The position numbers and the translations under genes are program-made. From Micromonospora sp. HM5-17 (GTDB taxonomy: Bacteria > Actinomycetota > Actinomycetes > Mycobacteriales > Micromonosporaceae), in assembly GCF_003762835.1 (NCBI RefSeq), contig NZ_RJWA01000003.1, positions 558,001 through 622,000 of the forward strand: a stretch of DNA of 64,000 nt, in the 5' to 3' direction. Position 1 is the stretch's first letter. The number at the start of each line of letters is the position of its first letter. Shown here piece after piece: positions 49,257-63,202 of this stretch. The notes beneath the pieces were generated by a model that was not told where the DNA came from, did not search any database, and saw nothing but the letters and a program-made list of their open reading frames with translations.

Positions 49257-50009
49257 TCAGTGGTCCGCGGCTTCCGGCGCGCGCCGGCAGGGCGCCCCGT
49301 TGATGGTGCACGCCGTGGGGGCGGCGTCCAGCAGCGCACCGTCGACGCGGAATCGCACCTGCACCGCGCCACCGGCCGGCACCCGGCGGGTCTTCGCGCT
49401 CGGCACGAAGGTCCAGGTGGCCCCGTCCCGGCTGGTCTCCGCCCCCTCCACCTGGGCGACCGCCTGGGTCCGCCGGGGCAGCGTGATCACCAGGGTCCAG
49501 TCGCTGACCGGACCCCTGCCCGGGTTGCTGATCGTCACCGCGACGGTGTAGTTGAGCAGCGTCACGTTCTCGGTGGCGTAGCTGGCGACCAGGGCGGCCG
49601 GCGAGGCCGGCGGCGGTGCCGTCGGCTCTCGGGTGTCGCGTGGCGGGTCCGTGGTCCGCTTCGGCGTGGGCGGCAGCGGCGACGTGGCGGGGGGCGTCGC
49701 CGCGGCGCCGGCCGGCTCCGGTCCACCGTCGGGGATGGCCTCGGCGGGCGGGCTCGGTGGGGCCGCCACCCCCAGCGGAGCGAGCTGGTCCGGGGCCCGC
49801 AGCAGCGCGACGACGAGGAGGCCGGTGCCGACCAGAACGCCCAGCGCGGTGCCGACGACCACGACGGCGAGGAGGCGCTCGCCGAGTCGGCCCGGCACCA
49901 CCCGGGCCAGCCGCCGGATCGATCCGCGGACGGCCGCCACCGCGGCCAGTAGCAGGTCGAGCAGGGCGACCGGCAGGGTACGCGGCGGACGTTGTCGAAC
50001 TTTCTGCAC
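49257..50009 (-). CDS. Membrane-anchored protein with C-terminal CBM2-like domain
   Basis: 250 aa: an Arg-rich cytoplasmic start, one transmembrane helix (residues 46-69), a Pro/Thr-rich linker (75-140) and a C-terminal beta-sandwich (145-240) resembling CBM2: NYTVAVTISNPGRGPVSDWT, LVITLPRRTQAV, VPAGGAVQVRFRVDG, and CTINGAPC with the usual Cys. GTG 50009 follows GGGAAGG. It lies where the GTPase of a conservon is normally found, 67 bp after the DUF742 gene. It may display a polysaccharide-binding domain outside the membrane. Confidence 0.75.
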   Translation of the reverse strand: MQKVRQRPPRTLPVALLDLLLAAVAAVRGSIRRLARVVPGRLGERLLAVVVVGTALGVLVGTGLLVVALLRAPDQLAPLGVAAPPSPPAEAIPDGGPEPAGAAATPPATSPLPPTPKRTTDPPRDTREPTAPPPASPAALVASYATENVTLLNYTVAVTISNPGRGPVSDWTLVITLPRRTQAVAQVEGAETSRDGATWTFVPSAKTRRVPAGGAVQVRFRVDGALLDAAPTACTINGAPCRRAPEAADH

Positions 50010-50076: not shown

Positions 50077-50460
50077 TCAGAGCGCCCGCAGACCGGCGAG
50101 TACGGCCTCCAGCAACTCGTCGGAGGGCGCGTCCATGATCGGCGGGGCGTGGCTCTCGATCAGCCCCAGCTCCAGCAGGTCGCCGAGGAGCACCCGGACG
50201 GTCCCCACCGGCAGGTCCAGTTCGGCCGAGATCTCCGCGACCGAGAGCGGCCGTACACACCGGGCGAGGATCGCGGCCTGCTCGGGGCCGAGGTCCGGCG
50301 GCGGTGTCGCCGACCGTCGTGCCAGCACGAGGGAGATCAGGTCGAAGTCGCCCCGGACCGGCTGGGTACGGCCCCGCGTCACCGCGTACGGCCGCACCAC
50401 CGGCCCGGCGTCCTGGTCGTACCACACGTCCTCCCTGCGGCCGTCCAGACCGGTGTGCAC
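50077..50460 (-). CDS. DUF742 protein (conservon CvnC-like)
   Basis: 127 aa. The family pattern is clear: VVRPYAVTRGRTQP, then FDLISLVLARR, LGPEQAAILARCVRPLSVAE, LDLPVGTVRVLLGDLLELGL and a C-terminal LLEAVLAGLRAL. The helix-turn-helix-like middle suggests a winged-helix fold. In conservons, proteins of this type work with a sensor kinase, a roadblock protein and a small GTPase at the membrane. It lies 6 bp after the roadblock gene. No GTPase follows. Confidence 0.9.
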   Translation of the reverse strand: MHTGLDGRREDVWYDQDAGPVVRPYAVTRGRTQPVRGDFDLISLVLARRSATPPPDLGPEQAAILARCVRPLSVAEISAELDLPVGTVRVLLGDLLELGLIESHAPPIMDAPSDELLEAVLAGLRAL

Positions 50461-50466
50461 GCCGGA

Positions 50467-50889
50467 TCACCCCCCGGCCGGGCCGTCGTCGGCCGGTACG
50501 GGGAAGGTCGGCAGGTGCAGGTTCGCCCGGCAGGCCGCCAGCGCCACCTCGTACGCCATGGCGTCGACCTCGGCGTCGCCGGCGAACCGTACGGCGAGGA
50601 TCGCCCCGCCCCGGGTCGCGGTGACGAAGAGGAACGCCCCGTGCATCTGCACGATCACCTGACGTACGCCGCCCGGGCCGGAGTACCGGGCGGCGGCCAG
50701 GGCCAGCGCCTGCAGCCCGGCGATGATGCTGGAGAGCTGCTCGGCCTCCTCGCGGTCCACCCCATGCGAGACGGCGAGCAGCAGCCCGTCGGGGGAGAGC
50801 GCCACGGCGTGCTGGGCGGCCGAGACACGGTTCACGAACTCGTCGAGTATCTCAACCAGGTTGTCCGTCGTGACCACTGCGTGCGTCAC
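50467..50889 (-). CDS. Roadblock/LC7 domain protein (conservon CvnB-like)
   Basis: 140 aa. LVEILDEFVNRVSAAQHAVA, LSPDGLLLAVSHGVDREEAE, and VRQVIVQMHGAFLFVTATRG are hallmarks of bacterial roadblock/LC7 proteins, which act as GTPase-activating or scaffolding partners of small GTPases. GTG 50889 lies inside the 3' end of the kinase gene (38-bp overlap). Confidence 0.92.
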   Translation of the reverse strand: MTHAVVTTDNLVEILDEFVNRVSAAQHAVALSPDGLLLAVSHGVDREEAEQLSSIIAGLQALALAAARYSGPGGVRQVIVQMHGAFLFVTATRGGAILAVRFAGDAEVDAMAYEVALAACRANLHLPTFPVPADDGPAGG

Positions 50890-53326
50890 CTGTCGTCCTC
50901 TCCGTGCTGCTGGGGTGATCGCCGGGCATCGGCAGAGTAACCGGCAGCTCCATCGTCGTCGACCAATCGGGTTCGGCGGGGTGGGCCGGAGCACCGTTCT
51001 GGTGCGGGCCGGCGACCCGGTTCGGTGCGGCCGCCGCCAGACCCTGATGGGGCTGGCGTACCCGGACCGGAAGTGCGGTCGGTTCGCCTGCGGGCGCCGG
51101 GGCGTCCGGACGGCCGACAGCGGTATCGACCGGGATGGTTGTCGGGCCATTGTCCTCCGGTCTGTCCAGTGCGCCACCCCCAACGTCGGGCGTGTCGGGC
51201 GATGCGACCGGATCGGCGCCGACGGGCCGGATCAGTAGGGTCGCCGGCACCAGCACGGTGGCGGTCGTCCCGCCGCGCGGTCCGGCGGCGAGTTCGACCG
51301 TGACACCGTGCCGCCGGGCAAGCCGGCCGATCAGGTAGAGGCCGGCCCGGCCGTGCAGCGGAGCGTCGGTGGGTGTGCCCTGGATCAGCGCGTTGATCGT
51401 CTGGAGTTCGGCGGGTCCCCGCCCGACGCCGTCGTCGCTGACCAGGATCGCCTGGGCGTCGCCCCGAACCTCCCCGCTGACCCGTACGGTGGTGGTCGGC
51501 GGCGACGCGGCCAGCGCCGTCTCGACCACCTCCGCGAGCAGGTGGACCAGGTCGGGCAGGGCGCGTCCGGCGACCTCCCCCGACCAGGTCGGCGCCACCA
51601 GTACCCGGGCGTAGTCCGACACCTCGGCCACCGCGCCCCGCACCACGTCCACCAGGGGCACGGGCTTGCGCCAGCGCCGGCCCGGGGTGCCGCCCGAGAA
51701 GCTGATCAACTGCTCCACGTTGCGGCGGATCCGGGTGGCGAGGTGGTCGAGTTGGAACAGCTCGGCCAGGGCGGCGGTGTCGGTCTCCCGCCGCTCCAGC
51801 GTGTCGAGCAGGCCGATCTGCCGGTGCAGCAGGCTCTGGTTCTCCCGGGTCAGCCGGACGAAGACCTCGCGGGCCCGCTGGTGCGCCGCCAGCCGTGCCG
51901 CCACCTGTGCGGCCCGTTCCGTCGCCCGTTCGGTCTGGGCCTGCCGCCGCGCGGTCTGGGCCTCCAGGCGCTCCCGCTGCGCCGCGAGTTCCCGGCGCTG
52001 GGTCGACATCTGGCCGGCCTGGGCGGCCAGCTTCGCCGCCCGTTCCGCCTGCACCGCCACCCGCGCCGCCAGCTCGTCCCGGGCCGCCCGCAGCTCCGCG
52101 TGCTCGGCCCGCAGCCGGTGCAGGTCGCCGACGAGCCGTCGCGCGGAGCGGAAGGCCAGCGCGACCGTGCCGATCACCGCGACGAGGCCGAGGCCACCGA
52201 CCAGGCCGAACCGGAGGACGACGCCGGCGGCGCCGGGCGCGGCGTGATCGACACTGCGGGTGACCCCGGTCCGCACCAGGTCGTGGAGTTCGGCGAGCGC
52301 CGGCTCGACAGCGGCCCGCCAGTCGTCGGCGCCGATCGGCGGGACGGTGTCCGGTGTGGACGCGGTCCGCCCGGCGACGAGCAGCTGCTCCTCCACGACG
52401 CGGAGCCGGGCGAAGACCGGGCCGGCCGCCAGCTGGTCGTAGGCGGCCCGCTCGGACGGGGGCAGCCCGGCCACCGCCTCGGCGCGGGCGAACCGCTGAA
52501 CGGCGACCAGCTCGGCGAACGCGGCGTGGTCGGCCTCGGTCATCCGCTGGGCGGCGAGTGCCCCGGCGACCAGCGCGTCCTCCCGGGCGAGGAGCTCGAT
52601 CGCCCGCGCCAGGGCCACGAACGCGTCGCTCTGTTCGGTCAGCTCGGCGTGCCGACTGGTCCACTGTGCCCCGTACACCGCGAAGCCGGCGTCGATGACC
52701 TCGGCGTACGCCGTCGCGACGGCGTCCCGGTCAGCCCGGCCCCGGTCGACGTCGGCGCGGAGCGGCGGCAGGGTCTCCGCGCGCCGGACCAGTTCGGCCG
52801 CCCGATCCCGGGCCGATCCGGCGGTCAGCAGCCGAAGGCCGTCGTCCTGGACGAATCGGCGCAGCGCCGTGATCGCGGCGTCGGTGCGGGACCGCTGCGC
52901 CGCCAGGGCGGCGCGGTGCCGTCCCGGCTCGACGAGCGCGACCAGGCTGAGCCGGCGCTCGGCCTGGAGATCGGCCAGGAGCGTCTCGGTCGGTCGTCCG
53001 AGCCGTTCGGTGAGCGTCCGCAGGGCGAGCAGGTCCAGGACGTCCCGGGCGGCCAGGAAGGAGGCGTACCCCCAGAGCAGGGTGAGGACGACGAGGACGG
53101 CCGCGGTGAACCGCCGGAGCCGCTCGGGCGTGACCGGCGACGCCGCCCGGTCCGGGTCGTCCGACCTGGTGGAGGGTGGTCCCGGTGGCCGGCCGGCCCC
53201 GTCCGGGCCGGTGGCCGAGGACTCGGCTACGCCGTCCGTGCCGGCGCGCGCTCCGTCCGGCTTCCGCGTCAGGCGCCGTCCCACCCGGCCGAGCTGGTCG
53301 AGCCGGCGCCGCACCGCCGCCCTCAC
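50852..53326 (-). CDS. Nitrate/nitrite-sensor-type histidine kinase (conservon CvnA-like)
   Basis: 824 aa. TM1 at about 72-93; a NIT-type extracellular helical sensor (about 95-355, DLQAERRLSLVALVEPGRHR and RSRTDAAITALRRFV); TM2 near 372-392; a coiled coil (400-490); a kinase core with ENQSLLHRQIGLLDTLERRE and FQLDHLATRIRRNVEQLI; ATPase motifs VSDDGVGRGPAEL and GRAGLYLIGRLARRHGV. A 150-residue Pro-rich tail ends the protein. Such kinases lead conservon operons. The next two genes are roadblock and DUF742; the upstream regulator gene overlaps by 4 bp. Confidence 0.88.
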   Translation of the reverse strand: MRAAVRRRLDQLGRVGRRLTRKPDGARAGTDGVAESSATGPDGAGRPPGPPSTRSDDPDRAASPVTPERLRRFTAAVLVVLTLLWGYASFLAARDVLDLLALRTLTERLGRPTETLLADLQAERRLSLVALVEPGRHRAALAAQRSRTDAAITALRRFVQDDGLRLLTAGSARDRAAELVRRAETLPPLRADVDRGRADRDAVATAYAEVIDAGFAVYGAQWTSRHAELTEQSDAFVALARAIELLAREDALVAGALAAQRMTEADHAAFAELVAVQRFARAEAVAGLPPSERAAYDQLAAGPVFARLRVVEEQLLVAGRTASTPDTVPPIGADDWRAAVEPALAELHDLVRTGVTRSVDHAAPGAAGVVLRFGLVGGLGLVAVIGTVALAFRSARRLVGDLHRLRAEHAELRAARDELAARVAVQAERAAKLAAQAGQMSTQRRELAAQRERLEAQTARRQAQTERATERAAQVAARLAAHQRAREVFVRLTRENQSLLHRQIGLLDTLERRETDTAALAELFQLDHLATRIRRNVEQLISFSGGTPGRRWRKPVPLVDVVRGAVAEVSDYARVLVAPTWSGEVAGRALPDLVHLLAEVVETALAASPPTTTVRVSGEVRGDAQAILVSDDGVGRGPAELQTINALIQGTPTDAPLHGRAGLYLIGRLARRHGVTVELAAGPRGGTTATVLVPATLLIRPVGADPVASPDTPDVGGGALDRPEDNGPTTIPVDTAVGRPDAPAPAGEPTALPVRVRQPHQGLAAAAPNRVAGPHQNGAPAHPAEPDWSTTMELPVTLPMPGDHPSSTERTTGDARSGHDGQPG

Positions 53327-55977
53327 CGGGCCGCCCGCGCGCGCGTCCAGGACGCCCCGTTCGGCTGACCGGCGGGACGTTCCTCGGTGATGGCCCGTAG
53401 CCGGGCCAGCAGCTCGCCGCGGCTTGCGCAGTTGAGCCGCTGCCGCATCCGGGCCACGTGGTGTTCGACCGTCTTCGCCGAGATGAAGAGCCGGTCTCCG
53501 ATCTGCTTGTACGTCAGGCCACCCAGCACCAACTCGGCGACCTCCCGTTCCCGTTCACTGAGTTGTCCTTCGGTCTGGGCCGCGGCCGGGTCCCCGACCG
53601 ACGGTGCTCCGGCGGCATTCGCCCGGCCGGCCCCGCCGATGGGCCTGCCCTGCAGCATCCGGGCGCAGTCCAGCAGCGCCGTCATGGCCCGACGGTCGGA
53701 GGTGCGGATCGCCGCCTGCCCGGCGAGCCGGGCGGCGTCCCAGCACAGCCCGATGCCGTGCAGGCCGCGGGCCGCCTCCTCCACCCGGTCCGGATCGACC
53801 TCGCCGCGCAGCACCTCGACCCAGCGCTGTCCGGCGGCGGCCAGCACCCCGGCGTACGGGCTGTGGTCCGCGGCGGCGGTCAGGGCCGTGACGTGCGCGT
53901 CCGCCACCGCCGGGCGGTCGGCCAGGATCGCCGCGTGCAGGGAATTCCAGTGCAGCGGGGTCGTCCACAGCGGAGGGTCGCCGAGCCGGGCCAGCAGGGC
54001 GCGGGCCTCGTCGAGGTGGGGCGTCAGCCGGTCCAGCTCGCCCAGCCGGGCGGCGGCGATGGCGAACTCGCCCAGCGGCAGCAGCGTGAACAGGTCCACC
54101 GGGTGTCGGACCACGGCCTCGCGGGCCCGGAGCCAGCCCCGTTGCAGTCCGGGCAGGTCGCTGGTGCGCCGGGCTATGCCGAGGTCGAGTGCGGCCGCGA
54201 AGACCAGGTCACGGGACTCCAGCGGGGTGCTGCCGGCGGTCACCGCGGCCAGCCGGGACGCGGCCTCGGCGACCCGGCCGCGCACCATCAGCAGCCAGGT
54301 CTGGAGCAGCCGGTGCCGGCGGGCGGTGAGTGCCGCCCCCAGGTGGGCGGCGACCGCGCGGTCGAGGACGCGTTCGCCGATGTCCAGCTCGCCACAGTGC
54401 AGCGCGACCAGCGCGGCGAGCGCCGCCGGGCTCTCCGGGAGCAGGACCGCGCGTCCGGCCGGCTCCAGCAGCGTCGCGGCCTGCACCAGGGTGGAGAGTG
54501 CGGCGGTCGGCGGGCCGGACAGCGTCTCCCGCAGCCCGCGGGCCATCAGCAGCGCGGCGCTGGCCAGCAGCGTGGGCGGGCCGTCGGCCGGCGGGTCGGC
54601 GAGCAACTGGTCGAGCTGCGCCACCTCGCCGGTCCCGACCGCGCCGAGGGCGGCGAAGGCCAGCGACGACGGCGTACCCGCCCAGCGGTAGAGCTCGACG
54701 GCCCGGTCGGGATGGCCCCGGTGCACCAGGGCGGTCGCGGCGATCGCCGCCCCCTCGGCCCGGTACGGCGACTCCGCGCTGGCGACGAGACGGTCGGCGA
54801 GGCGCAGCGCGGAGTCCAGGTCGGCGGCGAGGGCTGCCGCCGTCGCCCGGCGAGCCGCGGTCGGCCGCCCCGCCGCCTCGGCGGCGGCGAAGAGGCGGGC
54901 CGCGAGTGCCGGGTCCTCGGCCAACGCCTCGTCGCCGGCGGCCTCGGCGACCTCACCCGGGCAACTACCGCCGAGACCGCTGTCGATCATCGACCGGACC
55001 AGCGGCAGGACCCGGCCGCCGCGCTGTAGCTGCAGCTCGGCAAGGCGCCGCCAGACCGCGGCGCGCTGGCTGGCCGGGCTGAGCGTGGTGATGGCGCGCC
55101 GGACGAGCGGGGCGAGCCGGTCGTCCGGGCCGAGCAGTCCGCTGGCCCGGGCCGCCGCCAGTGGCCGGTCCACCTCCTCGGGGCCGCGGGACAGCAGCAC
55201 GCCGAGCAGGTCGGTGGGGACACCGGCCCCGGCCGCCAGGGCGAGCAGCAGCCGGCGGACCTCGAGGTCCAGGCTCTCCAGTTCCGGAACGAACTGGAGC
55301 AGCACCGACCGGGGGATCTCCAGCAGCGGCCCGGCGGCGCGGTCCGCCCCTGGCGCCGGGCCGCCGCTGGCCCGGGTGCCGGCCGGCCCGGCCTCGCGCT
55401 GGGCACCGTCGGCGGCCACCGGCAACGCCCGGGCCAGCCATTCGACGAACCGGGGTACGCCGCCGGTCTGCTCGTGCACCAGCCGGGTGACGGCCGGCGC
55501 GACCGGCGTTCCGCGAACGCGGCCGAGGTACGTGGCGGTCCGCTGCTCGGTGAACGGCCCGAGCAGCACCGGCGGTCCGCCCCGGTGCAGGAGGTCGGCC
55601 AGGTCCGCGAGGCCGGCCGGCCGGGGCCAGGGGCGGAACGCGACGACGAGTCGGGCCCGACCCGCCTCGGCGAGCCGGCACAGCTCGCCGAGCGAGGCGG
55701 TGTCGAGCAGGTGCGCGTCGTCGACCAGCACCGCACAGCCCGGGTCGGCGGGGTCGGCGGCGTCCCGCCAGTGGTCGAGTACGGCGATCCCGGCCTGCTG
55801 GAAGCTGTGGCGCAGCCGGCCGAGCACGGCGGTCTTGCCGTGGCCCCCGGCGGCCTGGACTGCCGTGCTGAGCGGGGCTCGGGGGTCGGCGTCGACCCGG
55901 GCCAGGAACGCCTCGGTCTGTTCGTCGAGGACGAGTGGGGAAACGGTGTCGGTCCGGAGCATCGGCGGCACGCTCAC
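53323..55977 (-). CDS. Large LuxR-family ATPase regulator (LAL/IniR-like)
   Basis: 884 aa from GTG 55977, which overlaps the Hsp70 stop by 4 bp (Met 55962 is an alternative). The N-terminal ATPase has a relaxed Walker A AAGGHGKTAVLGRL and Walker B CAVLVDDAHLLD. Residues about 350-800 are helical TPR-like repeats. The C-terminal LuxR helix-turn-helix is LSEREREVAELVLGGLTYKQ followed by FISAKTVEHHVARMRQRLN. Mycobacterial iniBAC is controlled by IniR, also a large regulator; the divergent IniBAC-like set here makes a similar role likely (inference). Confidence 0.87.
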   Translation of the reverse strand: MSVPPMLRTDTVSPLVLDEQTEAFLARVDADPRAPLSTAVQAAGGHGKTAVLGRLRHSFQQAGIAVLDHWRDAADPADPGCAVLVDDAHLLDTASLGELCRLAEAGRARLVVAFRPWPRPAGLADLADLLHRGGPPVLLGPFTEQRTATYLGRVRGTPVAPAVTRLVHEQTGGVPRFVEWLARALPVAADGAQREAGPAGTRASGGPAPGADRAAGPLLEIPRSVLLQFVPELESLDLEVRRLLLALAAGAGVPTDLLGVLLSRGPEEVDRPLAAARASGLLGPDDRLAPLVRRAITTLSPASQRAAVWRRLAELQLQRGGRVLPLVRSMIDSGLGGSCPGEVAEAAGDEALAEDPALAARLFAAAEAAGRPTAARRATAAALAADLDSALRLADRLVASAESPYRAEGAAIAATALVHRGHPDRAVELYRWAGTPSSLAFAALGAVGTGEVAQLDQLLADPPADGPPTLLASAALLMARGLRETLSGPPTAALSTLVQAATLLEPAGRAVLLPESPAALAALVALHCGELDIGERVLDRAVAAHLGAALTARRHRLLQTWLLMVRGRVAEAASRLAAVTAGSTPLESRDLVFAAALDLGIARRTSDLPGLQRGWLRAREAVVRHPVDLFTLLPLGEFAIAAARLGELDRLTPHLDEARALLARLGDPPLWTTPLHWNSLHAAILADRPAVADAHVTALTAAADHSPYAGVLAAAGQRWVEVLRGEVDPDRVEEAARGLHGIGLCWDAARLAGQAAIRTSDRRAMTALLDCARMLQGRPIGGAGRANAAGAPSVGDPAAAQTEGQLSEREREVAELVLGGLTYKQIGDRLFISAKTVEHHVARMRQRLNCASRGELLARLRAITEERPAGQPNGASWTRARAAR

Positions 55978-57281
55978 CCGCGACCGGCGGCTCGGCGGGA
56001 CAGGACACGCATCGGCAGCTCCAGCGGGGTGATCCGGATTGGTGGACGGGGTGGCAAAAGGTCCCGGGCGTCGTCGTACCGGCCGACGCCGTCGGAATCG
56101 GGTGCGGACCGGGCGCGCCCCCGCCGGGCCGCCGGGTCGGGACGACCGAACCCGGGCCGGGGTGGGCGCATCACCGGCGGGCGGGGTGGCGGCCGGTTGC
56201 CCCGCTGTCGGTCGAGGATCTGGCTGCCGGCGACCGCGGCGCCGAGCGCGACCGTGAGCTGCGGGTCGGCCCCGGTCTCGATCGGCACCGGAAACCGGGC
56301 GGCGAGCAGGTCCCGGAGCAGTGGGATCCGGGCCGAGCCGCCGGCCAGCAGGACGCCGTCGAGGTCCTCCGGACGCAGGCCGCGGGCGCGGACCGTCCGG
56401 GCCAGTTCGTCGACGGTCCAGGCGACGGCGGGGCGGATCAGCCCCTCGAACTCGGCCCGGGTGACGCTGCGGCGCAGCTCGCGGTGGGGCAGCCGGACGC
56501 GGATCTCGACGCTGCGGGCGCCGCTCAGCTCCACCTTGGCCCGGCGGCACTCGCGGCGTAGCTCGGCCAGGGCCGACCGTACCGCCGGGTCGGCGAGTGC
56601 GGAGAGGTCCCGGGCCCACCCGGTCCGGAGGTGTTCGACCAGGAGGTCGTCGAAGTCGGCTCCGCCGAGCGGCTCGGGTTCGGGGTGGACGCCGCGTAGC
56701 GTGTAGCCGAGTGGTTGCGCGCGGTCGACCACCGCCGGCTCGAACGTGTCGCCGCCAAGGGTGTGTACGGCGAGGGTCCGGCCGCCGCGACCCGCGGCGG
56801 CGTGTGCCGCGGCGACGGCGACCGGGCCGGGGAGGAGGCTGACCTCGGTGAGCCCCACCTCCCACAGCGCCTCCTGGAGCAGATGCCGGCGGTACGACCC
56901 CCAGCCCGCCGGGTGGCTCAGCACGATCCAGTCCGGACGTTCGCCCTCCCGGGCGACGACGCGCTCGACCACCCACATCGCCAGCGTCGCGGTGAGCGCC
57001 TGGGCCGGGCACAGCTCGCCGCCCACCAGCAGCGGCACGTCGTCACCGACCCGGCGGAAGAAGCCGCGGGCGACCCAGCCGGGATCGACGCGTTCGTCCT
57101 GGTCGTCCGGATCGGCCACGGTGAGGGCGCGGTTCGGCGACATCAGCAGCACGGACGGCACCGGGTGGGCGGTGGGGGAGAGCGGAACGGCCTCGGGGTG
57201 CTCCCAGGTCGAGCCCCGGGGGCGGATGACAGCGGCGGCGGTGCTGGTGCTGCCGATGTCGACACCGAGGACGTAGGGCAT
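55974..57281 (-). CDS. Hsp70-family ATPase-domain protein with degenerate phosphate loop
   Basis: 435 aa. Only the actin-like nucleotide-binding domain of Hsp70 is present (residues 1-355), followed by an Arg/Pro-rich disordered tail in place of the substrate-binding domain. Phosphate-1: YVLGVDIGSTSTAAAVI. Phosphate-2 reads TLGGDTFEPAVV where DnaK has DLGGGTFD, so key Asp/Gly residues differ. Adenosine motif: LDGVLLAGGSARIPLLRDLL. No DnaJ/GrpE nearby. It starts the minus-strand operon regulator-kinase-roadblock-DUF742 and faces IniB. A sensory or scaffolding role is more likely than general chaperoning (inference). Confidence 0.85.
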   Translation of the reverse strand: MPYVLGVDIGSTSTAAAVIRPRGSTWEHPEAVPLSPTAHPVPSVLLMSPNRALTVADPDDQDERVDPGWVARGFFRRVGDDVPLLVGGELCPAQALTATLAMWVVERVVAREGERPDWIVLSHPAGWGSYRRHLLQEALWEVGLTEVSLLPGPVAVAAAHAAAGRGGRTLAVHTLGGDTFEPAVVDRAQPLGYTLRGVHPEPEPLGGADFDDLLVEHLRTGWARDLSALADPAVRSALAELRRECRRAKVELSGARSVEIRVRLPHRELRRSVTRAEFEGLIRPAVAWTVDELARTVRARGLRPEDLDGVLLAGGSARIPLLRDLLAARFPVPIETGADPQLTVALGAAVAGSQILDRQRGNRPPPRPPVMRPPRPGFGRPDPAARRGRARSAPDSDGVGRYDDARDLLPPRPPIRITPLELPMRVLSRRAAGRG

Positions 57282-57294
57282 CCGATCAGTCCTT

Positions 57295-57313
57295 CACCAC
57301 GTGTGGTCACCAC
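57295..57313. promoter_or_regulatory. CACCAC/GTGGT inverted-repeat cluster
   Basis: Two CACCAC copies flank GTGTGGT; the right half is an 11-bp palindrome GTGGTCACCAC (57303-57313). It lies 14-32 bp upstream of the Hsp70-like start, within that gene's promoter/leader. Confidence 0.45.
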
Positions 57314-57383
57314 GAGGCAGCGCATTGTCTGCGCAGGTCGTGCCGGGTGCGGGCGCGCGGGGTGGGCATTGCCCGGTGGGCTG

Positions 57384-57466
57384 TTAGGGGAGTCATCTTT
57401 TCGTACCAGAGATCTATCCGCCATCGGGACCCTAACTACTGCGGAGCAAATCCCCTAAGCCCCTAA
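57384..57466. promoter_or_regulatory. Clustered CCC(C)TAA/TTAGGGG repeats in divergent control region
   Basis: TTAGGGG (57384-57390), CCCTAA (57430-57435), CCCCTAA (57452-57458) and CCCCTAA (57460-57466) occur within 83 bp, with 22-bp and 8-bp offsets between successive plus-strand copies. The stretch is AT-richer than its surroundings and lies midway in the 352-bp divergent region (57282-57633) between the Hsp70-like and IniB-like genes. Binding sites for the encoded LuxR-type regulator are the natural guess. Confidence 0.55.
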
Positions 57467-57633
57467 TCAGAATTTCAGATTCGGCCCTAGCGCGGGCGGT
57501 GCGGGAATCGGGCGCCTTCCCCGATGTCTGGCCCGGATGCCGCTGGCTAGGGTCGAGCACCAGATCCGAACAGCGCCTCCGGGTCGGCCTCGGCCGGCAT
57601 CCGGGCCGCGGCTCGTCCGAGGAGACCGGCACG

Positions 57634-58569
57634 ATGGGTTCGCCCCAGACACTGCACGACTTCGTGCTCAACCTGCTCACCAACCCGGATGCGCGTTCGG
57701 CCTTCGAGCTCGACCCCGAGGGCGCCCTACGGGAGGCGGGCCTCACCGACATCACCGTGGCGGACGTGCGGGACGTGATTCCGCTGGTGGTCGACTACGC
57801 GCCGGTCCAAGGGCTCGGCTCACTCGTGCCCGCCGGCGACGACCTCGGGCTGGCGGAGTTCCAACCCGACCCGGCGGCCGTCATCAACCAGTTGCAGACC
57901 GTCACACAGCAGCTCGCCGTCGGTCCACACCCGACCGGGCCCGACCTCAACACCGCCGCGCTGGGCGCCATCACCGCCGTCGCGCCGGCGAGCCTCGGGG
58001 TGGCGGGTTCCGGGCTGACGGGGCTGGGGATCGGCGGCGAGACCCCCGACCCGTCGACCTCGCTGGACGCCGCCACCCCGGCCGAGGTCGACCGCGACGA
58101 GACCTCCGACACCGCCGTCGGGGCGCCGGCGGTGTCGGAGCCGGCGGACGGCCTCGAAATCTCCGCCGCTCCGGCCGACGCCTCGGGCGACCCGCTGGGT
58201 GTGGTCGACTTCGCCGGTGACACCCTGACGGGGACCCTCGACCAGGTGACCGGGCTGGTCGACGCGCTGGGCGGACCGAAAGGTCTTGGCGGTGTCGGTG
58301 AGTCCCTGGGGGTGGGCGACACGGTCGCCGGGCTCACCGACACCGTCGACGGCGTCACGGACGTCCTCGACGTCAGCCCGCTCCACGCCTCGGATGCCTC
58401 TGCCCCCGACGACCTGGGTGCCACCTCGGCTGTGCGTGGTCTCACCGCTGACGTCGGGGACGTGGTGCGCGGGACCACCTCTGGCCTTCTCGGAGACACC
58501 GGCCCGACCGGAGCAGAAAACGCCTCCACCTCCGGCGGCCTCCTGGGCATCACGGATGAACTTCTCTGA
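57634..58569 (+). CDS. IniB N-terminal domain protein
   Basis: 311 aa. The first 60 residues (MGSPQTLHDFVLNLLTNPDA, then FELDPEGALREAGLTDITVA and DVRDVIPLVVDYA) match the conserved N-terminal domain of mycobacterial IniB. The rest is low-complexity Gly/Ala/Thr/Asp with repeats such as DQVTGLVDALGG, TVAGLTDTVDGVTDVLDV and GLTADVGDVV. No signal peptide. ATG 57634 has GAGGAG 9 nt upstream. First of three plus-strand genes with two dynamin-type GTPases. It may be a secreted or envelope partner of them. Confidence 0.85.
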   Translation: MGSPQTLHDFVLNLLTNPDARSAFELDPEGALREAGLTDITVADVRDVIPLVVDYAPVQGLGSLVPAGDDLGLAEFQPDPAAVINQLQTVTQQLAVGPHPTGPDLNTAALGAITAVAPASLGVAGSGLTGLGIGGETPDPSTSLDAATPAEVDRDETSDTAVGAPAVSEPADGLEISAAPADASGDPLGVVDFAGDTLTGTLDQVTGLVDALGGPKGLGGVGESLGVGDTVAGLTDTVDGVTDVLDVSPLHASDASAPDDLGATSAVRGLTADVGDVVRGTTSGLLGDTGPTGAENASTSGGLLGITDELL

Positions 58570-58592
58570 GCGCGGGAAGCCCGTGTAGCCCG

Positions 58593-58630
58593 CCGAAGGC
58601 CGGACTGTGGTCCCACGGTCCGGCCTTCGG
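58593..58630 (+). terminator. Strong hairpin between IniB-like and IniA-like genes
   Basis: CCGAAGGCCGGAC (58593-58605) and GTCCGGCCTTCGG (58618-58630) form a perfect 13-bp stem with a 12-nt loop, 24 bp after the iniB-like stop. It may terminate or attenuate the transcript, leaving the dynamin genes with lower or separate expression. Confidence 0.68.
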
Positions 58631-58680
58631 TCTACTCCGCTCCTCTTGATAATTCCGGCGTAATCGGCACACTTGGTGCG

Positions 58681-60993
58681 GTGATGGCGCCCAACTGGCT
58701 TGACGTCCTCGACGACATCGTCCGGGTCTCGGGCAGACACGGACGCGACGACCTCATCCAGTGGCTCCAACGCCGGCGCGCCCAGCTGCTGGATCCGAGG
58801 CTGCGGGTGCTGATCGTCGGTGAGCCCAAACAGGGCAAGAGTCTCCTGGTCAACGCGTTGCTCAACGCGACGGTCTGCCCGGTCGGGGAGGGGATCGACA
58901 CCACGATCCCGACCGTGGTCGGGCACGCCGAGACCCCCACCGCCGCGCTCGTCTGGACCCCGTTGCCGATTCGGGCGCGCCCCAACGAGCCGGCTGCTGG
59001 GCGGCGGCCCGAGCGGTCCGGGTCGGAGCGGGTGGGGCGCGCCGCGCCCACCTCGCCCGGCCCGCAGCGTCGGCCGCCCGGCGGTTCCGGCGCGGAGACC
59101 TGGCCTCCGGACGGTCGCGGCCCGAAGCCGTGGGCGCCGACCTCGGGCACGCCACCGTGGCCGGCGACGGATGCCGACCCACCACCATGGTCGGCGGCGG
59201 GCTCCCCCGCGGAGAGCTGGTCGGTCTCGGGCGCCGGACCGTGGCCGCCGACGTCGCCGGGCGGGTCGTCATGGGCGCCGAACGAGCCCGGCGGGTCGGC
59301 ACCGGGGAGGATGCCGGCCGGCCCCGGGGCAGGGCAGCGTGGCCGGGGGGCCGCCGCGGGCGGCGTGCCCGGCACGGAGACGGTGGGGCCGGCCCGACGG
59401 ATCGCCGTACCGCTGGAGCGGATCGCGGCCCGGATCAGCGGTCGTACCAGCGTGCTCGTCGACGAAGGGGCGTCGGCCGGCGGCGACGCGGTCGGTGACG
59501 ACCTCGCCGATGCCCCGTCCGGAGCCGGGGTCGAACACGCCGAGATCGGGATACCCCGGGCACTGCTCGCCTCCGGCCTGGTGCTGGTCGACACACCGGG
59601 GCTGGACGCCACGAACCCGCGCCGCACGATCAGTCCGGCCGCGTCCCCCGGACAGGCCGATCTGGTGCTGCTGGTGTCGGACGTGACCCGGGAACTCTCC
59701 GTCGCCGAACTGAACCTGCTGCTGCACATCGCGCAGTCACACGCCAACGTGGCGGTGGTGCAGAGCAAGATCGACCTGGTGCCGGACTGGCGCAGTGTGG
59801 TCGAGCGCAACCGCCGTCACCTGGCCGACGCCGGGGTCTCCGCCGCACTCATCCCGGTCTCGGCGACGCTGCGGCTGCTGGCGGCCCGGACCAACGACAG
59901 AGAGCTCAACGCCGAGTCCCGGTTTCCGGAGCTGATCAGCCGGCTGCGTCGCGACCAGGCGGGCAAGGCCGACGGGCTGGCCCGGGCGGCGGTGGCGCTC
60001 AGCGCACGCACCGTCCTCGAACAACTTGCCGCGCCGCTCCGGGCCGAACTCGCCGTCACGACCGCCGCCAGCACATCCGGGCCGGTCTCGAAGCTGCACG
60101 CCGCCCAGCGGGAGGTGGACGAGCTGCGGCGCTGCTCGGTGCGCTGGCAGAACACCCTGAACGACGAGATGGCGGACCTCATCTCCGACATCGAGTACGA
60201 CCTGCGGGACCGGACCCGGCAGATCCTGCGCAAGGTCGACGAGGCGTTCGACACCGCCGACCCGCTGACCGGCTGGGACACCTTCCAGGAGTGGCTGACC
60301 GAGAACCTGACCGAGGCGGCGGAGGCGAACTACGCGTGGCTGGCCGAGCGCTGCGGCTGGATCGCCCAGCGGGTCGCCAGCAACTTCGAGCGGTACGGCT
60401 TCGACGCGGTGCCGAGCTGGTCGGTGCGCGTGCCGGAGAACCTGGGGGACCGGATCCAGGTGATGGAACAGCCCACGGTCGAGCGGTTCACCCCGACCCA
60501 GAAGCTGGTCACCGGGCTGCGCGGCTCGTACGGCGGTCTCCTGATGTTCGGCCTCGCGACCACGCTGGCCGGACTGCCGCTGATCAACCCCATCTCGCTC
60601 GGCGCCGGTGCGCTCTTCGGCGGCAAGAGCGTCCGGGACGAGAGCAAGGCGTTGCTCAAGCGACGCCAGGCGGCGGTCAAGACGGCCACGCAACGGCACG
60701 TGGACGACTTCTTCCTGCGGCTCAGCAAGGACACCAAGGACACCGCCCGGCAGGTGCAGCGAATGCTTCGTGACCACTTCACCGGGCTCACCGAGGAGCT
60801 CCAGGAGGGGATCATTCGGTCGTTCCGCAGCGCGAAGCAGGCGGCGGAGGTCGACGCGGCGCAACGCGACCAGCGCCAGCGGAGGATCGCGGAGGAGATG
60901 AAGCGCCTGGCCGACCTCTACGAGCGGGCCCAGGCACTGGTCGGGGTCACCGCCGTCACGCCCGGCCGCACCGGGCTCGAGGCGGGGGTGTGA
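58681..60993 (+). CDS. IniA-like dynamin-family GTPase
   Basis: 770 aa from GTG 58681 (ATG 58684 also possible). GTPase motifs: G1 IVGEPKQGKSLLVNALL (about 45-58), G2 IDTTIPTVVGH, G3 LVDTPGLDA near 304 and G4 VVQSKIDLVPDW near 360. Between G2 and G3 is an insert of about 140 residues, Pro/Gly/Trp-rich (WPPDGRGPKPWAP-like repeats). A helical stalk follows, with a hydrophobic membrane-paddle candidate at about 610-640 (LLMFGLATTLAGLPLINPIS). IniA of mycobacteria is a membrane-remodelling bacterial dynamin; the same action is inferred. Confidence 0.87.
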   Translation: MMAPNWLDVLDDIVRVSGRHGRDDLIQWLQRRRAQLLDPRLRVLIVGEPKQGKSLLVNALLNATVCPVGEGIDTTIPTVVGHAETPTAALVWTPLPIRARPNEPAAGRRPERSGSERVGRAAPTSPGPQRRPPGGSGAETWPPDGRGPKPWAPTSGTPPWPATDADPPPWSAAGSPAESWSVSGAGPWPPTSPGGSSWAPNEPGGSAPGRMPAGPGAGQRGRGAAAGGVPGTETVGPARRIAVPLERIAARISGRTSVLVDEGASAGGDAVGDDLADAPSGAGVEHAEIGIPRALLASGLVLVDTPGLDATNPRRTISPAASPGQADLVLLVSDVTRELSVAELNLLLHIAQSHANVAVVQSKIDLVPDWRSVVERNRRHLADAGVSAALIPVSATLRLLAARTNDRELNAESRFPELISRLRRDQAGKADGLARAAVALSARTVLEQLAAPLRAELAVTTAASTSGPVSKLHAAQREVDELRRCSVRWQNTLNDEMADLISDIEYDLRDRTRQILRKVDEAFDTADPLTGWDTFQEWLTENLTEAAEANYAWLAERCGWIAQRVASNFERYGFDAVPSWSVRVPENLGDRIQVMEQPTVERFTPTQKLVTGLRGSYGGLLMFGLATTLAGLPLINPISLGAGALFGGKSVRDESKALLKRRQAAVKTATQRHVDDFFLRLSKDTKDTARQVQRMLRDHFTGLTEELQEGIIRSFRSAKQAAEVDAAQRDQRQRRIAEEMKRLADLYERAQALVGVTAVTPGRTGLEAGV

Positions 60994-62489
60994 GCCGGGC
61001 GGTCTCCGGGATCGCCGAGGCGTCCTGGGAACTGCTGACCGAGGCGGTGGAGCTGTACCGGACCGACCAGCGCGCGGTGCGCCGGCTGCACCGCCAGCTC
61101 GAGCGGTACGCCGAGCCGCTGCGAATCGCCGTCGCCGGCCCGTGGCGGTCGGGCAAGTCCACCCTGCTCAACGCCATCATGGGCGAGGAGGTCGCGCCGG
61201 TCGAGGTCGCCGACGGCCGTCAGGTCTTCACCTGGTACGAGGACGGCGCCCAGCCGCGGGTCACCGCGTACGCGGCCAGCGGCTCGCCGCGGGAGCTGGC
61301 GGTGACCCGGACCGCGCGCGGCATGCGGGTCGATCTGGGCGGCTGGCGGTGGGACCAGGTTGACGACATCGTGGTGCAGTGGCCCACCCGCGCACTGCGG
61401 CACGCCGTCCTCATCGACACTCCGGCGATCTCGCCCGAACTCGACCCGGTGGGCGGTCCGGACCGGACGCCGCCGGAGCTGCCCGACGCCGGGGCGTCCG
61501 TGCTCGGCCGGGTGGTCCGGGAGGCGGATGCCGTGCTCTACCTGAGCCGGGACGGCCGCGGCGACGACCTGGGGTCCCTCCGGGCGGCGGAGCCGGACTC
61601 GGTGGCCGGTGCGGCCCCCGTCAACGTGCTGATGGTGCTCTCCCGGGTCGACGAACTCGCCGGCGGCCGGATCGATGCGCTGTTGACGGCCCGACAGCTC
61701 GCCCGCCGGTACCGGCGGGACCCGGCGATCAGCGCCCGCTGCCTGAGCGTCGTCGCGCTCGGTGGCCTGGTCGCGCTGGCGGGTCGGGTGCTGACCGAAC
61801 CAGAGTACGCCGCGCTGGCCGTGCTGGCCCGGCTGCCGAAGGCGGAGAACGACCGGCTGCTCCTCTCCACGGATCGGTTCACCGCCCCCGACGCCCCGGT
61901 CGCGGTCGACGTCGCGACCCGGCGCGCGCTCCTCGACCGGCTGGGCATCTTCGGGGTACGCCTGTCGATCACGTTGATCCGTACCGGCTGCGACACCCGG
62001 GCCCGGCTCGCCACCGAGCTGGTCCGGCGCAGCGGCCTGGCTGAGCTCCGCGAGTCGATCACCCGGTACTTCGTGGACCGCACCCCGCTGCTCAAGGCCC
62101 GGTCGGCGTTGGCGGCGCTGGAGTCGCTGCTGCGGACGGAGCCGCGCCCGGGGACGAAGGAACTTCTCGCCCGGCTGGAGCACGTGCTCGCCACGGCGCA
62201 CGAGTTCCGGGAGCTGCGGCTGCTGGCCGCGCTGCTCGGCGGCCGGATCCGGTTCGAACCCGAACTGCTGGCGGAGGCGAACCGGCTGCTCGGCGGCGAC
62301 GGCACCAGTCTGGCGGCCCGACTCGGCATCGAACACGACGCCACCGCGGACGAGCTGTGGGAACGGGGTTGCGTCGCGGTGCGGCGGTGGCAGGAGTTGG
62401 CCGAGGACCCGGCGTACGGGGCCGAGCAGCGGCGGGCCGCCCGGGTCGTGGTACGCAGTTGCGAGGGGATGCTGGCCGAGCTGACCTGA
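60990..62489 (+). CDS. IniC-like dynamin-family GTPase
   Basis: 499 aa, close to mycobacterial IniC in length. GTG 60990 overlaps the IniA-like stop by 4 bp. G1: AVAGPWRSGKSTLLNAIMG near residue 48; G3: LIDTPAIS (the usual Gly of DTPG is Ala); G4: VLSRVDEL. The C-terminal two-thirds is helical, without an obvious transmembrane segment. Likely a hetero-partner of the IniA-like protein. Compared with it, the GTPase domain is compact and has no Pro-rich insert. Confidence 0.86.
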   Translation: MSRAVSGIAEASWELLTEAVELYRTDQRAVRRLHRQLERYAEPLRIAVAGPWRSGKSTLLNAIMGEEVAPVEVADGRQVFTWYEDGAQPRVTAYAASGSPRELAVTRTARGMRVDLGGWRWDQVDDIVVQWPTRALRHAVLIDTPAISPELDPVGGPDRTPPELPDAGASVLGRVVREADAVLYLSRDGRGDDLGSLRAAEPDSVAGAAPVNVLMVLSRVDELAGGRIDALLTARQLARRYRRDPAISARCLSVVALGGLVALAGRVLTEPEYAALAVLARLPKAENDRLLLSTDRFTAPDAPVAVDVATRRALLDRLGIFGVRLSITLIRTGCDTRARLATELVRRSGLAELRESITRYFVDRTPLLKARSALAALESLLRTEPRPGTKELLARLEHVLATAHEFRELRLLAALLGGRIRFEPELLAEANRLLGGDGTSLAARLGIEHDATADELWERGCVAVRRWQELAEDPAYGAEQRRAARVVVRSCEGMLAELT

Positions 62490-62503: not shown

Positions 62504-63202
62504 TCAGAAGTCGAGGAACCCGAGCCGGATCGCGGCGTCCCGGGCGATCAGGAAACCGGCGATCCCGATGATCCAGCCGGTGGTGCTGCCACCCTTCTCG
62601 ACGATCCAGGTGTTGAGCCGGCCCAGCAGCCGTTCCGTCGGGCCCGGGACGGCGGCCCGGGTCGCGAGCAGGACCCCGGCCGGCAGGACCATGACCAGGC
62701 AGTAGCCGGCCAGCAGCACCGGCACCGTCCAGTCCGCGAGGTCCGCGGTGGCCATCAGCCCGATCGCCCCGAGGTACGGCAGCATGGTCGCGACCTCGGC
62801 CAGCGCCGCCAGCAGGGCGAGCCCGACCAGCCAGCCGGCCGAGGCGGTGCCGCCGGTGACCCGGTCCCGCCACCGGGCCGCCGGGCCGGGCCCCCGCCGC
62901 CGCCTGCCGTCGAAGCGGAAGCTCAGCACGAGCAGGCCGACGCCGACCGCGAGCTGGACGTAGTCGAGGATGACGGAGCTGCCCGCCCGGTCGAGCGCGG
63001 TCATGAGTCGCCCACCGCCGTAGACCAGCAGCAGGCCGACGCCGAAGTAGAAGAGCGCGATGGTGCCGAGGTAACCCAGGACACGTCCGACGCTGATCCG
63101 CTTGGGCGACAGGAGCAGCCAGACCGGGATGAAGAGGGTGCCGATGCTGGTGCTGTCCAGCAGCGCGAGGCCGGCGAGCGAGAGCAGGAGGGCGGCGTTC
63201 AC
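62504..63202 (-). CDS. GAP/Sap family (LysE-like) membrane protein
   Basis: A 232-aa protein with six transmembrane helices in two sets of three around a basic loop (RFDGRRRRGPGP). LLSLAGLALLDSTSIGTLFI at the N-terminus is the hallmark of the sulfolipid-1-addressing (Sap/GAP) family, related to LysE exporters and linked to transport of lipid or small molecules. It starts at GTG 63202 and is convergent with the IniC-like gene, with a 14-bp gap. Confidence 0.83.
   Translation of the reverse strand: MNAALLLSLAGLALLDSTSIGTLFIPVWLLLSPKRISVGRVLGYLGTIALFYFGVGLLLVYGGGRLMTALDRAGSSVILDYVQLAVGVGLLVLSFRFDGRRRRGPGPAARWRDRVTGGTASAGWLVGLALLAALAEVATMLPYLGAIGLMATADLADWTVPVLLAGYCLVMVLPAGVLLATRAAVPGPTERLLGRLNTWIVEKGGSTTGWIIGIAGFLIARDAAIRLGFLDF

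Follow-up and report, generated by a model that had tools for sequence, protein, structure and literature searches.

Gene content of the locus

The stretch of DNA analysed here, called the window in what follows, comprises 64,000 nucleotides of Micromonospora sp. HM5-17 (contig NZ_RJWA01000003.1, positions 558,001 to 622,000) and contains two divergent operons related to the iniR-iniBAC locus of mycobacteria. Mycobacterial iniBAC is a drug-induced membrane-remodelling system, and we know of no reason to think that the present organism makes mycolic acids. The plus-strand operon is formed, in this order, by iniB (57634-58569), iniA (58681-60993) and iniC (60990-62489, overlapping iniA by 4 bases). 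The IniB-type protein passes the cut-off of the IniB_NTERM model (NF038175, 68.9 bits against 40). The IniA-type dynamin GTPase matches Dynamin_N (2.5e-12) and the solved M. smegmatis IniA, 6j72 (1.7e-83); among the relatives it is closest to three Plantactinospora proteins (78-80% in the best segment). The dynamin-like protein that follows reaches Dynamin_N at 8.1e-5 and 23.1 bits, under the Pfam cut-off of 27, and it is called IniC-type from its position and from 35-37% identity to the second dynamin gene at three mycobacteria-like loci, so termed since their IniR exceeds the cut-off of the NCBIfam model NF038181.

The minus-strand operon extends to about 49257. It starts with an Hsp70-like protein of 435 residues (55974-57281; PF00012, 9.8e-26) and continues with an IniR homologue formed by NTPase, helical-repeat and LuxR DNA-binding domains (53323-55977; GerE; NF038181, 2.1e-145), a NIT-domain sensor kinase with a HATPase domain and two hydrophobic segments (CvnA-like, 50852-53326; PF08376 8.7e-39, PF02518 6e-10), a roadblock/LC7 protein whose start was moved to 50889 (CvnB-like, 50467-50889; PF03259 3.3e-16), a DUF742 protein (CvnC-like, 50077-50460; PF05331 4.5e-34) and a CBM2-type protein with a hydrophobic segment in its hydropathy profile (49257-50009; PF00553 2.4e-9). 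The genes are tightly packed, with 4-base overlaps at the Hsp70-like/IniR and IniR/kinase junctions, the kinase having a GTG start, and an overlap of 38 bases between kinase and roadblock. An open reading frame of 1229 aa for the LuxR protein (53323-57012) was discarded as over-long; the start is most likely at 55977, a GTG that overlaps the Hsp70 stop by 4 bases.

All the genes named by an earlier sequence-only reading of this DNA (IniB, IniA, IniC, Hsp70-like, LuxR/ATPase, NIT kinase, roadblock and DUF742) are thus present with family support. That reading had placed them together at 53323-62489, an interval that does contain the ini, Hsp70-like and LuxR/ATPase genes and leaves the kinase, roadblock and DUF742 genes outside.

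Relation to the mycobacterial iniR-iniBAC system

Sequence comparison makes the large LuxR ATPase homologous to IniR, which in mycobacteria activates iniBAC and is encoded divergently from it. NF038181 covers residues 22-864 of its 884, with 486.1 bits. Across 296 genomes of the phylum only 3 exceed the cut-off of this model and 269 give any match, which for most of them is, among the matches listed, a short LuxR-type stretch only. In an alignment of the window protein with those of the 61 loci left after filtering by frame and length, the Walker A motif carries Lys in 51 and Arg in 11 of the 62 sequences, and the Walker B DD is kept in all 62. The predicted structure (pLDDT 86.9) shows the NTPase, the helical repeats and the LuxR domain. 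This layout is shared with E. coli MalT, and so is the presence of short direct-repeat arrays upstream, MalT boxes being arrays of short direct repeats upstream of MalT targets. The regulon differs, the ligand probably differs too, and the structural likeness is weak: the fold search gave mostly generic helical-repeat matches, together with a maltose-system entry, 8bob_C (E 2.3e-4, TMq 0.16), a chain unconfirmed as MalT.

According to the accessible text of the main IniR study, IniR (Rv0339c/MMAR_0612) is a three-part protein and a direct activator of iniBAC, ChIP-seq shows binding immediately before iniBAC, iniR adjoins iniBAC with conserved synteny in mycobacteria, and a dnaK-like gene lies beside iniR in M. 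smegmatis (PMC5760070). Since the LuxR ATPase is an IniR homologue and iniR beside iniBAC is already published, the core arrangement is not new, and the remark of the sequence-only reading, which did not recognize the arrangement as a whole as described, does not hold for this core. The likeness includes the activator adjoining and diverging from iniB-iniA-iniC, the IniB_NTERM domain, the homology of IniA to 6j72, and a CCCCTAA repeat that is found in six order-level genomes, three of them with an IniR over the cut-off. In contrast to the mycobacterial system, here an Hsp70-like gene stands between iniR and iniB as the first gene of the iniR operon and its product has no membrane segment, a kinase-roadblock-DUF742-CBM2 tail follows iniR, and IniR scores under the equivalog cut-off. 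There is no iniB* beside the locus, because it has only one IniB_NTERM gene. The locus is a variant of a known system, in which the direct repeat before iniB, the loss of catalytic residues in the Hsp70-like protein and the conserved hairpin after iniB are new.

Conservation among relatives

For the study of synteny, IniA was used to collect 80 loci, the best of 121 that were confirmed, and the window proteins were mapped onto them with tblastn; in 73 of the 80 the flank upstream of the top IniA match reaches 3.5 kb or more. Of these 73 loci, 72 have both the Hsp70-like and the IniR gene in minus orientation, divergent from the ini genes, and IniB and IniC are present in all 73. This co-oriented arrangement of the Hsp70-like and IniR genes is beyond chance, and the synteny of the two arms foreseen by the sequence-only reading is confirmed. 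It also bears on the possibility that we are dealing with an ordinary iniR-iniBAC locus in which the Hsp70-like gene is an unimportant neighbour. The mycobacterial precedent would favour this, as iniR-iniBAC is published there and M. smegmatis is the only species for which the accessible part of the same source (PMC5760070) mentions a dnaK-like gene. We consider it rather improbable in view of the 72 loci of 73; outside the class, too, two genomes have the gene close to their ini genes (loci L119-L121).

The genes after iniR behave differently. They were counted in 40 Micromonosporaceae and 25 Pseudonocardiaceae loci with IniR away from the edge, leaving out 14 and 1 loci, respectively, in which IniR was missing or lay at the edge. 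A gene was counted as absent when no tblastn match at 1e-4 to the window proteins was seen within a flank of about 5 kb (less in some loci), so that genes that have diverged may escape the count. In the Micromonosporaceae, 36 of the 40 loci show one or more conservon-type genes after IniR: 24 have the kinase and 12 have roadblock without kinase. In the other 4 loci kinase, roadblock, DUF742 and CBM2 all went unmatched; the CBM2 protein is matched in 24. None of these four genes gave a tblastn match in any of the 25 Pseudonocardiaceae loci. With 36/40 against 0/25, the core unit would be iniBAC with the IniR/Hsp70-like arm, and the conservon-type genes look like an addition at the level of the family Micromonosporaceae.

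The sequence-only reading had proposed a single divergently transcribed envelope-stress unit. The part that survives is iniBAC facing the Hsp70-like/IniR pair, conserved as above and probably related to envelope stress; the whole block with the conservon genes as one conserved unit is rejected on the Pseudonocardiaceae count at the above tblastn threshold. It might still be argued that the dynamin, Hsp70-like/IniR and conservon-type genes form one signalling unit with the kinase as sensor, given that the overlapping or near-touching genes suggest a single transcript from the Hsp70-like gene to DUF742 and that most Micromonosporaceae have some conservon-type gene after IniR. We regard this as unlikely: the genes went unmatched in all the Pseudonocardiaceae and four Micromonosporaceae loci, another 12 loci of this family lack the kinase, and no conservon GTPase lies nearby.

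A direct repeat before iniB

The intergenic region holds three boxes. Box B (57452-57466, plus strand) is the direct repeat CCCCTAAGCCCCTAA, of the form CCCCTAA-N-CCCCTAA, and is proposed as the IniR operator. Box C (57519-57553, plus strand), the proposed iniB promoter, is formed by CCCCGATG and a -10-like hexamer TAGGGT 29 bases on; TCCCCTAAGCCCCTAA sits 67 bases before CCCCGATG. These patterns were spotted by eye before counting and the shuffle figures follow that selection; the whole-genome searches are the independent test. The survey covered 72 regions, 47 from Micromonosporaceae and 25 from Pseudonocardiaceae, excluding L003, L011, L022 and L080, where the IniB start was not found, and L004, L024, L032, L037 and L052, which have no Hsp70-like gene. 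A strict two-unit repeat is present in 34/47 and 21/25 regions, with a shuffle expectation of 0.05 of 72, and a looser one in 46/47 and 24/25, with 0.95 expected. The combination of CCCCGATG and hexamer is found in 46/47 and 25/25 regions (71/72), and shuffles predict 0.00.

In the 6.17-Mb genome (96% complete), CCCCTAANCCCCTA occurs twice, where base composition predicts 0.16. The second site, on contig C12, precedes a second, unlinked IniB_NTERM gene (L113:8789-10084), and both sites keep the spacing of 66-67 bases to CCCCGATG and 29 to the -10-like hexamer. The two genes preceded by CCCCTAANCCCCTA are the only two IniB_NTERM matches in the genome. The unlinked iniB is flanked by acyltransferase-like and transporter-like genes, both recognized by eye.

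A longer pattern searched in 81 genomes of the family gave 13 hits in 11 genomes (two of the hits in the own genome) against 2.1 expected by base composition, and CCCCTAATCCCCTA in 121 genomes of the order gave 8 hits in 6 genomes. All 21 exact hits, 2 of them in the own genome, stand before an IniB-type gene, as assigned by tblastn for the 13 family hits and L142, by NCBIfam for L135 and by NF038175 for the six other order hits, for which the IniB domain lies 150-180 bases downstream. Eight genomes, selected for carrying the box, have 19 IniB_NTERM matches, of which 12 are preceded by the box; six of the seven box-less matches stand just upstream of a box, in order-level genomes, like the published iniB* before iniBAC. 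The IniB_NTERM match at G456:C23:476395 has no exact match to the searched pattern before it. Reversed-pattern controls gave 1 hit in the family and 4 in the order, a control that is not independent because the own repeat of the hit genomes contains the reversed word.

We think that the CCCCTAA repeat is a likely candidate for the IniR operator. The repeat might instead belong to another regulator, such as HpoR, reported at iniBAC with the motif CAGACN7TGTCTG in the accessible part of PMC13413693. This seems to us quite improbable, since that motif differs and both the CCCCTAA repeat and the recognition helix of IniR are constant: the DNA-binding helix ISAKTVEHHVAR is identical in the window, L114-L118 and L121, and slightly different in L119 and L120. 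In the portions of the iniR/iniBAC literature consulted no operator sequence for IniR was found, an earlier report of the box being possible, and the consulted text of PMC5760070 does not state how IniR recognizes DNA or is silenced. As the short box stands before IniB genes wherever it was found across the order, the IniR regulon becomes predictable, unlinked iniB genes included.

Box A, TTCGTACCAGAGA (57400-57412), lies about 120 bases before the Hsp70-like start and may serve the Hsp70-like/iniR operon as promoter or operator. It is present in 45/47 Micromonosporaceae versus 0/25 Pseudonocardiaceae regions, and the genome has one exact copy and another with a mismatch.

The Hsp70-like protein

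The predicted structure of the Hsp70-like protein is that of the nucleotide-binding domain of DnaK (pLDDT 87; Foldseek to 2v7y, E 1.8e-24, TMq 0.72). The PF00012 match stops at residue 352 of 435, the remainder being mostly below pLDDT 70, and neither Pfam nor the predicted structure gives a substrate-binding domain. The protein thus shares the fold of this domain with Hsp70/DnaK and differs in missing the substrate domain and in having lost the catalytic Lys and Asp. The catalytic residues of DnaK are Lys70, Glu171 and Asp194, and their equivalents were counted in the window and 72 loci aligned with DnaK, without the truncated L006, L020 and L023 and without L004, L024, L032, L037 and L052, which have no Hsp70-like match. 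The Lys70 equivalent is kept in 0/73 sequences, that of Asp194 in 1/73 and that of Glu171 in 29/73; the window carries F, G and T at the Lys70, Glu171 and Asp194 positions, respectively. The Asp8 equivalent is retained in 71/73 and the glycines of the GG motif in 73/73 and 72/73.

A plain DnaK-type chaperone is rejected on these losses. The label 'actin-like ATPase' of the sequence-only reading may overstate the activity because the residues of Hsp70 hydrolysis are lost. One could still think of a protein that remains active as a chaperone or ATPase, with its catalytic residues moved to other positions, and has IniA or IniB as its target: Asp8 and the GG motif persist, R77, an Arg near the lost Lys that is invariant in the 48 sequences of one alignment, could replace it, and L119-L121, from two genomes outside the class, retain all four residues (Asp8, Lys70, Glu171, Asp194). 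The missing substrate domain, the loss of Lys in 73/73 and of Asp in 72/73, and a different set of losses in the mycobacteria-like L114-L116, where Asp8 is Ser, Lys is Val and Asp194 is retained, make it doubtful in our opinion. We favour a protein that probably binds nucleotide without Hsp70-type hydrolysis.

The tail is mostly disordered and Pro-rich, and contains PPRPPIRITPLELP. The motif PPPRPPVxITPLxLP is found in 66/73 sequences with a pattern written after viewing the tails (a narrower first pattern gave 16/73); L002, L011, L029, L031 and L079 narrowly miss the pattern, and the motif is absent from L078 and L080. By eye it resembles the DnaK linker, which is LLLDVTPLSLG, a likeness that may be convergence because no such motif was seen in the sequences of L114a, L116 and L121. 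In six of nine added relatives (L114a, L115, L116, L118a, L120, L121) the domain is followed by a hydrophobic segment and then by a Pro/Thr-rich or other tail, taken to be exterior; L114b and L118b, in frames that were not trimmed, also have the segment, and L119 does not. It is absent in 67/73 Micromonosporaceae and Pseudonocardiaceae proteins; in the other six, three Plantactinospora have a segment after the tail motif, and in L003, L011 and L022 the only scoring stretch is the final helix of the domain. Two clusters of IniR, IniA, IniC and Hsp70-like genes, L119 and L120, lie in a single genome outside the class (G086), and in the order-level relatives L114 (14917-15435) and L118 (6852-7157) a second Hsp70-like match is found across iniR.

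A speculative picture, to which we give limited credence, is that a hydrolysis-dead Hsp70 was captured by a MalT-like activator of dynamins as its dedicated switch, one that senses nucleotide or peptide. The ancestor would have been intact and often membrane-anchored with an exterior tail, and would have decayed separately in the mycobacteria-like relatives (without Asp8 and Lys, the membrane segment being retained) and in Micromonosporaceae and Pseudonocardiaceae (Lys and Asp194 lost, mostly soluble), where the conserved tail might dock on IniR. Beyond the M. smegmatis dnaK-like gene, no Hsp70-like partner was found in the parts of the iniR literature consulted.

Dynamins and the hairpin after iniB

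Of 81 aligned IniA rows, almost all retain the G1, G3 and G4 motifs. In IniC, G1 is retained, the Gly of G3 is changed to Ala in 52/81 and the Lys of G4 to Arg in 78/81, substitutions that make it look like a partner with altered GTP binding. Paired dynamin-like proteins are also found in another actinomycete, Streptomyces (DynA/DynB), with a different role in sporulation septation according to the accessible text of PMC6428758, the comparison being one of function and not of locus. The window IniA has a low-complexity region of 178 residues between G1 and G3; it measures 97-113 in three Plantactinospora and about 30 in most others.

Between iniB and iniA lies an attenuator-like hairpin with an 18-bp stem (58592-58631, plus strand) and without a clear T run. 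Among 74 post-iniB regions (not including L003, L011, L022 and L080, nor L032, L037 and L052, in which IniB gave no match), 73 have a stem run of at least 8, and 70 fold better than 40 plain base shuffles per region (z < -1.5). L033 fails both measures and the L054 region contains N's. In the 23 of 74 regions that were used for covariation, 9 of 12 pairs have changes in both partners; each pair is broken in 0-6 sequences, and the covariation term is small. According to a remark in the accessible part of PMC5760070, the RNA data of that study may point to IniB being much more abundant than IniA and IniC, an excess that a partial stop at the hairpin could explain.

Proposed mechanism

We consider it probable that the locus is an ini-type envelope-stress module, with IniR acting on the CCCCTAA repeat, a dedicated hydrolysis-deficient Hsp70-like partner and conservon genes added. 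IniR, as a MalT-like ATPase activator, would be produced together with the Hsp70-like protein. On sensing envelope damage, which we infer as the stimulus, it would multimerize on the direct repeat, which stands about 100 bases ahead of the -10-like hexamer before iniB, and its oligomers would recruit RNA polymerase at the iniB promoter and switch on iniB-iniA-iniC; the second, unlinked iniB of this genome would be activated too. IniA and IniC, as dynamin-type proteins, would remodel or mend the membrane, the hairpin may hold IniB in excess over both, and the Hsp70-like protein would be dedicated to IniR (or to the Ini proteins) as a partner or switch rather than work as a general chaperone. 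A further signal may enter through the kinase-roadblock-DUF742 genes. In mycobacteria trehalose is a cue for the IniR system, as far as the available text of PMC5760070 goes. A conserved partner with lost catalytic residues points, in our opinion, to an unexamined control layer in the cell-wall-drug response.

Several observations weigh against this proposal. The link from IniR to the box is one that we infer from sequence, and the score of 486.1 bits, under the NF038181 equivalog cut-off of 750, makes the protein a homologue and not a certified equivalog. The exact pattern is missing in 70/81 family and 115/121 order genomes, ini-locus carriers not being told apart in these counts, and many Micromonospora boxes have diverged. 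Micromonospora deserti (L004:1-2400) retains box, promoter and iniBAC without an adjoining iniR or Hsp70-like gene, a PfpI-like gene (by eye) occupying their place. L079 retains the catalytic Asp, and the Glu171 equivalent persists in the 29 sequences counted above. Finally, as the accessible text of PMC5760070 describes a dnaK-like gene beside iniR for M. smegmatis alone, IniR seems to act in other mycobacteria without one adjoining.

Conservon-type genes and other neighbours

Streptomyces conservons are made up of cvnA-D. The sensor kinase, roadblock and DUF742 genes are all present here in conservon order by Pfam, so that the 'conservon signalling set' of the sequence-only reading is right for these three members and incomplete as a set, the GTPase being missing. 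The genome has 9 roadblock matches and 4 ATP_bind_1 (CvnD-type GTPase) matches; none of the latter is near the locus (C23:608587), each lying within about 1 kb of another roadblock gene, and a complete conservon is rejected on this ground. Besides lacking this GTPase, the genes differ from Streptomyces conservons in being joined to the IniR operon and followed by the CBM2 protein.

On the other side, a Sap/SfLAP-type membrane protein (62504-63202; PF11139, 2.6e-28) faces iniC and has a tblastn match in 0/80 loci. Among 17 loci inspected behind iniR, a GGDEF-EAL gene was seen in Lentzea L060 and, judged by its last letters, in L055; the PAS-GGDEF-EAL protein of L060 (2733-5138) may start 4 bases inside the iniR stop. 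The accessible part of PMC13413693 describes c-di-GMP as acting on iniBAC in BCG via HpoR.

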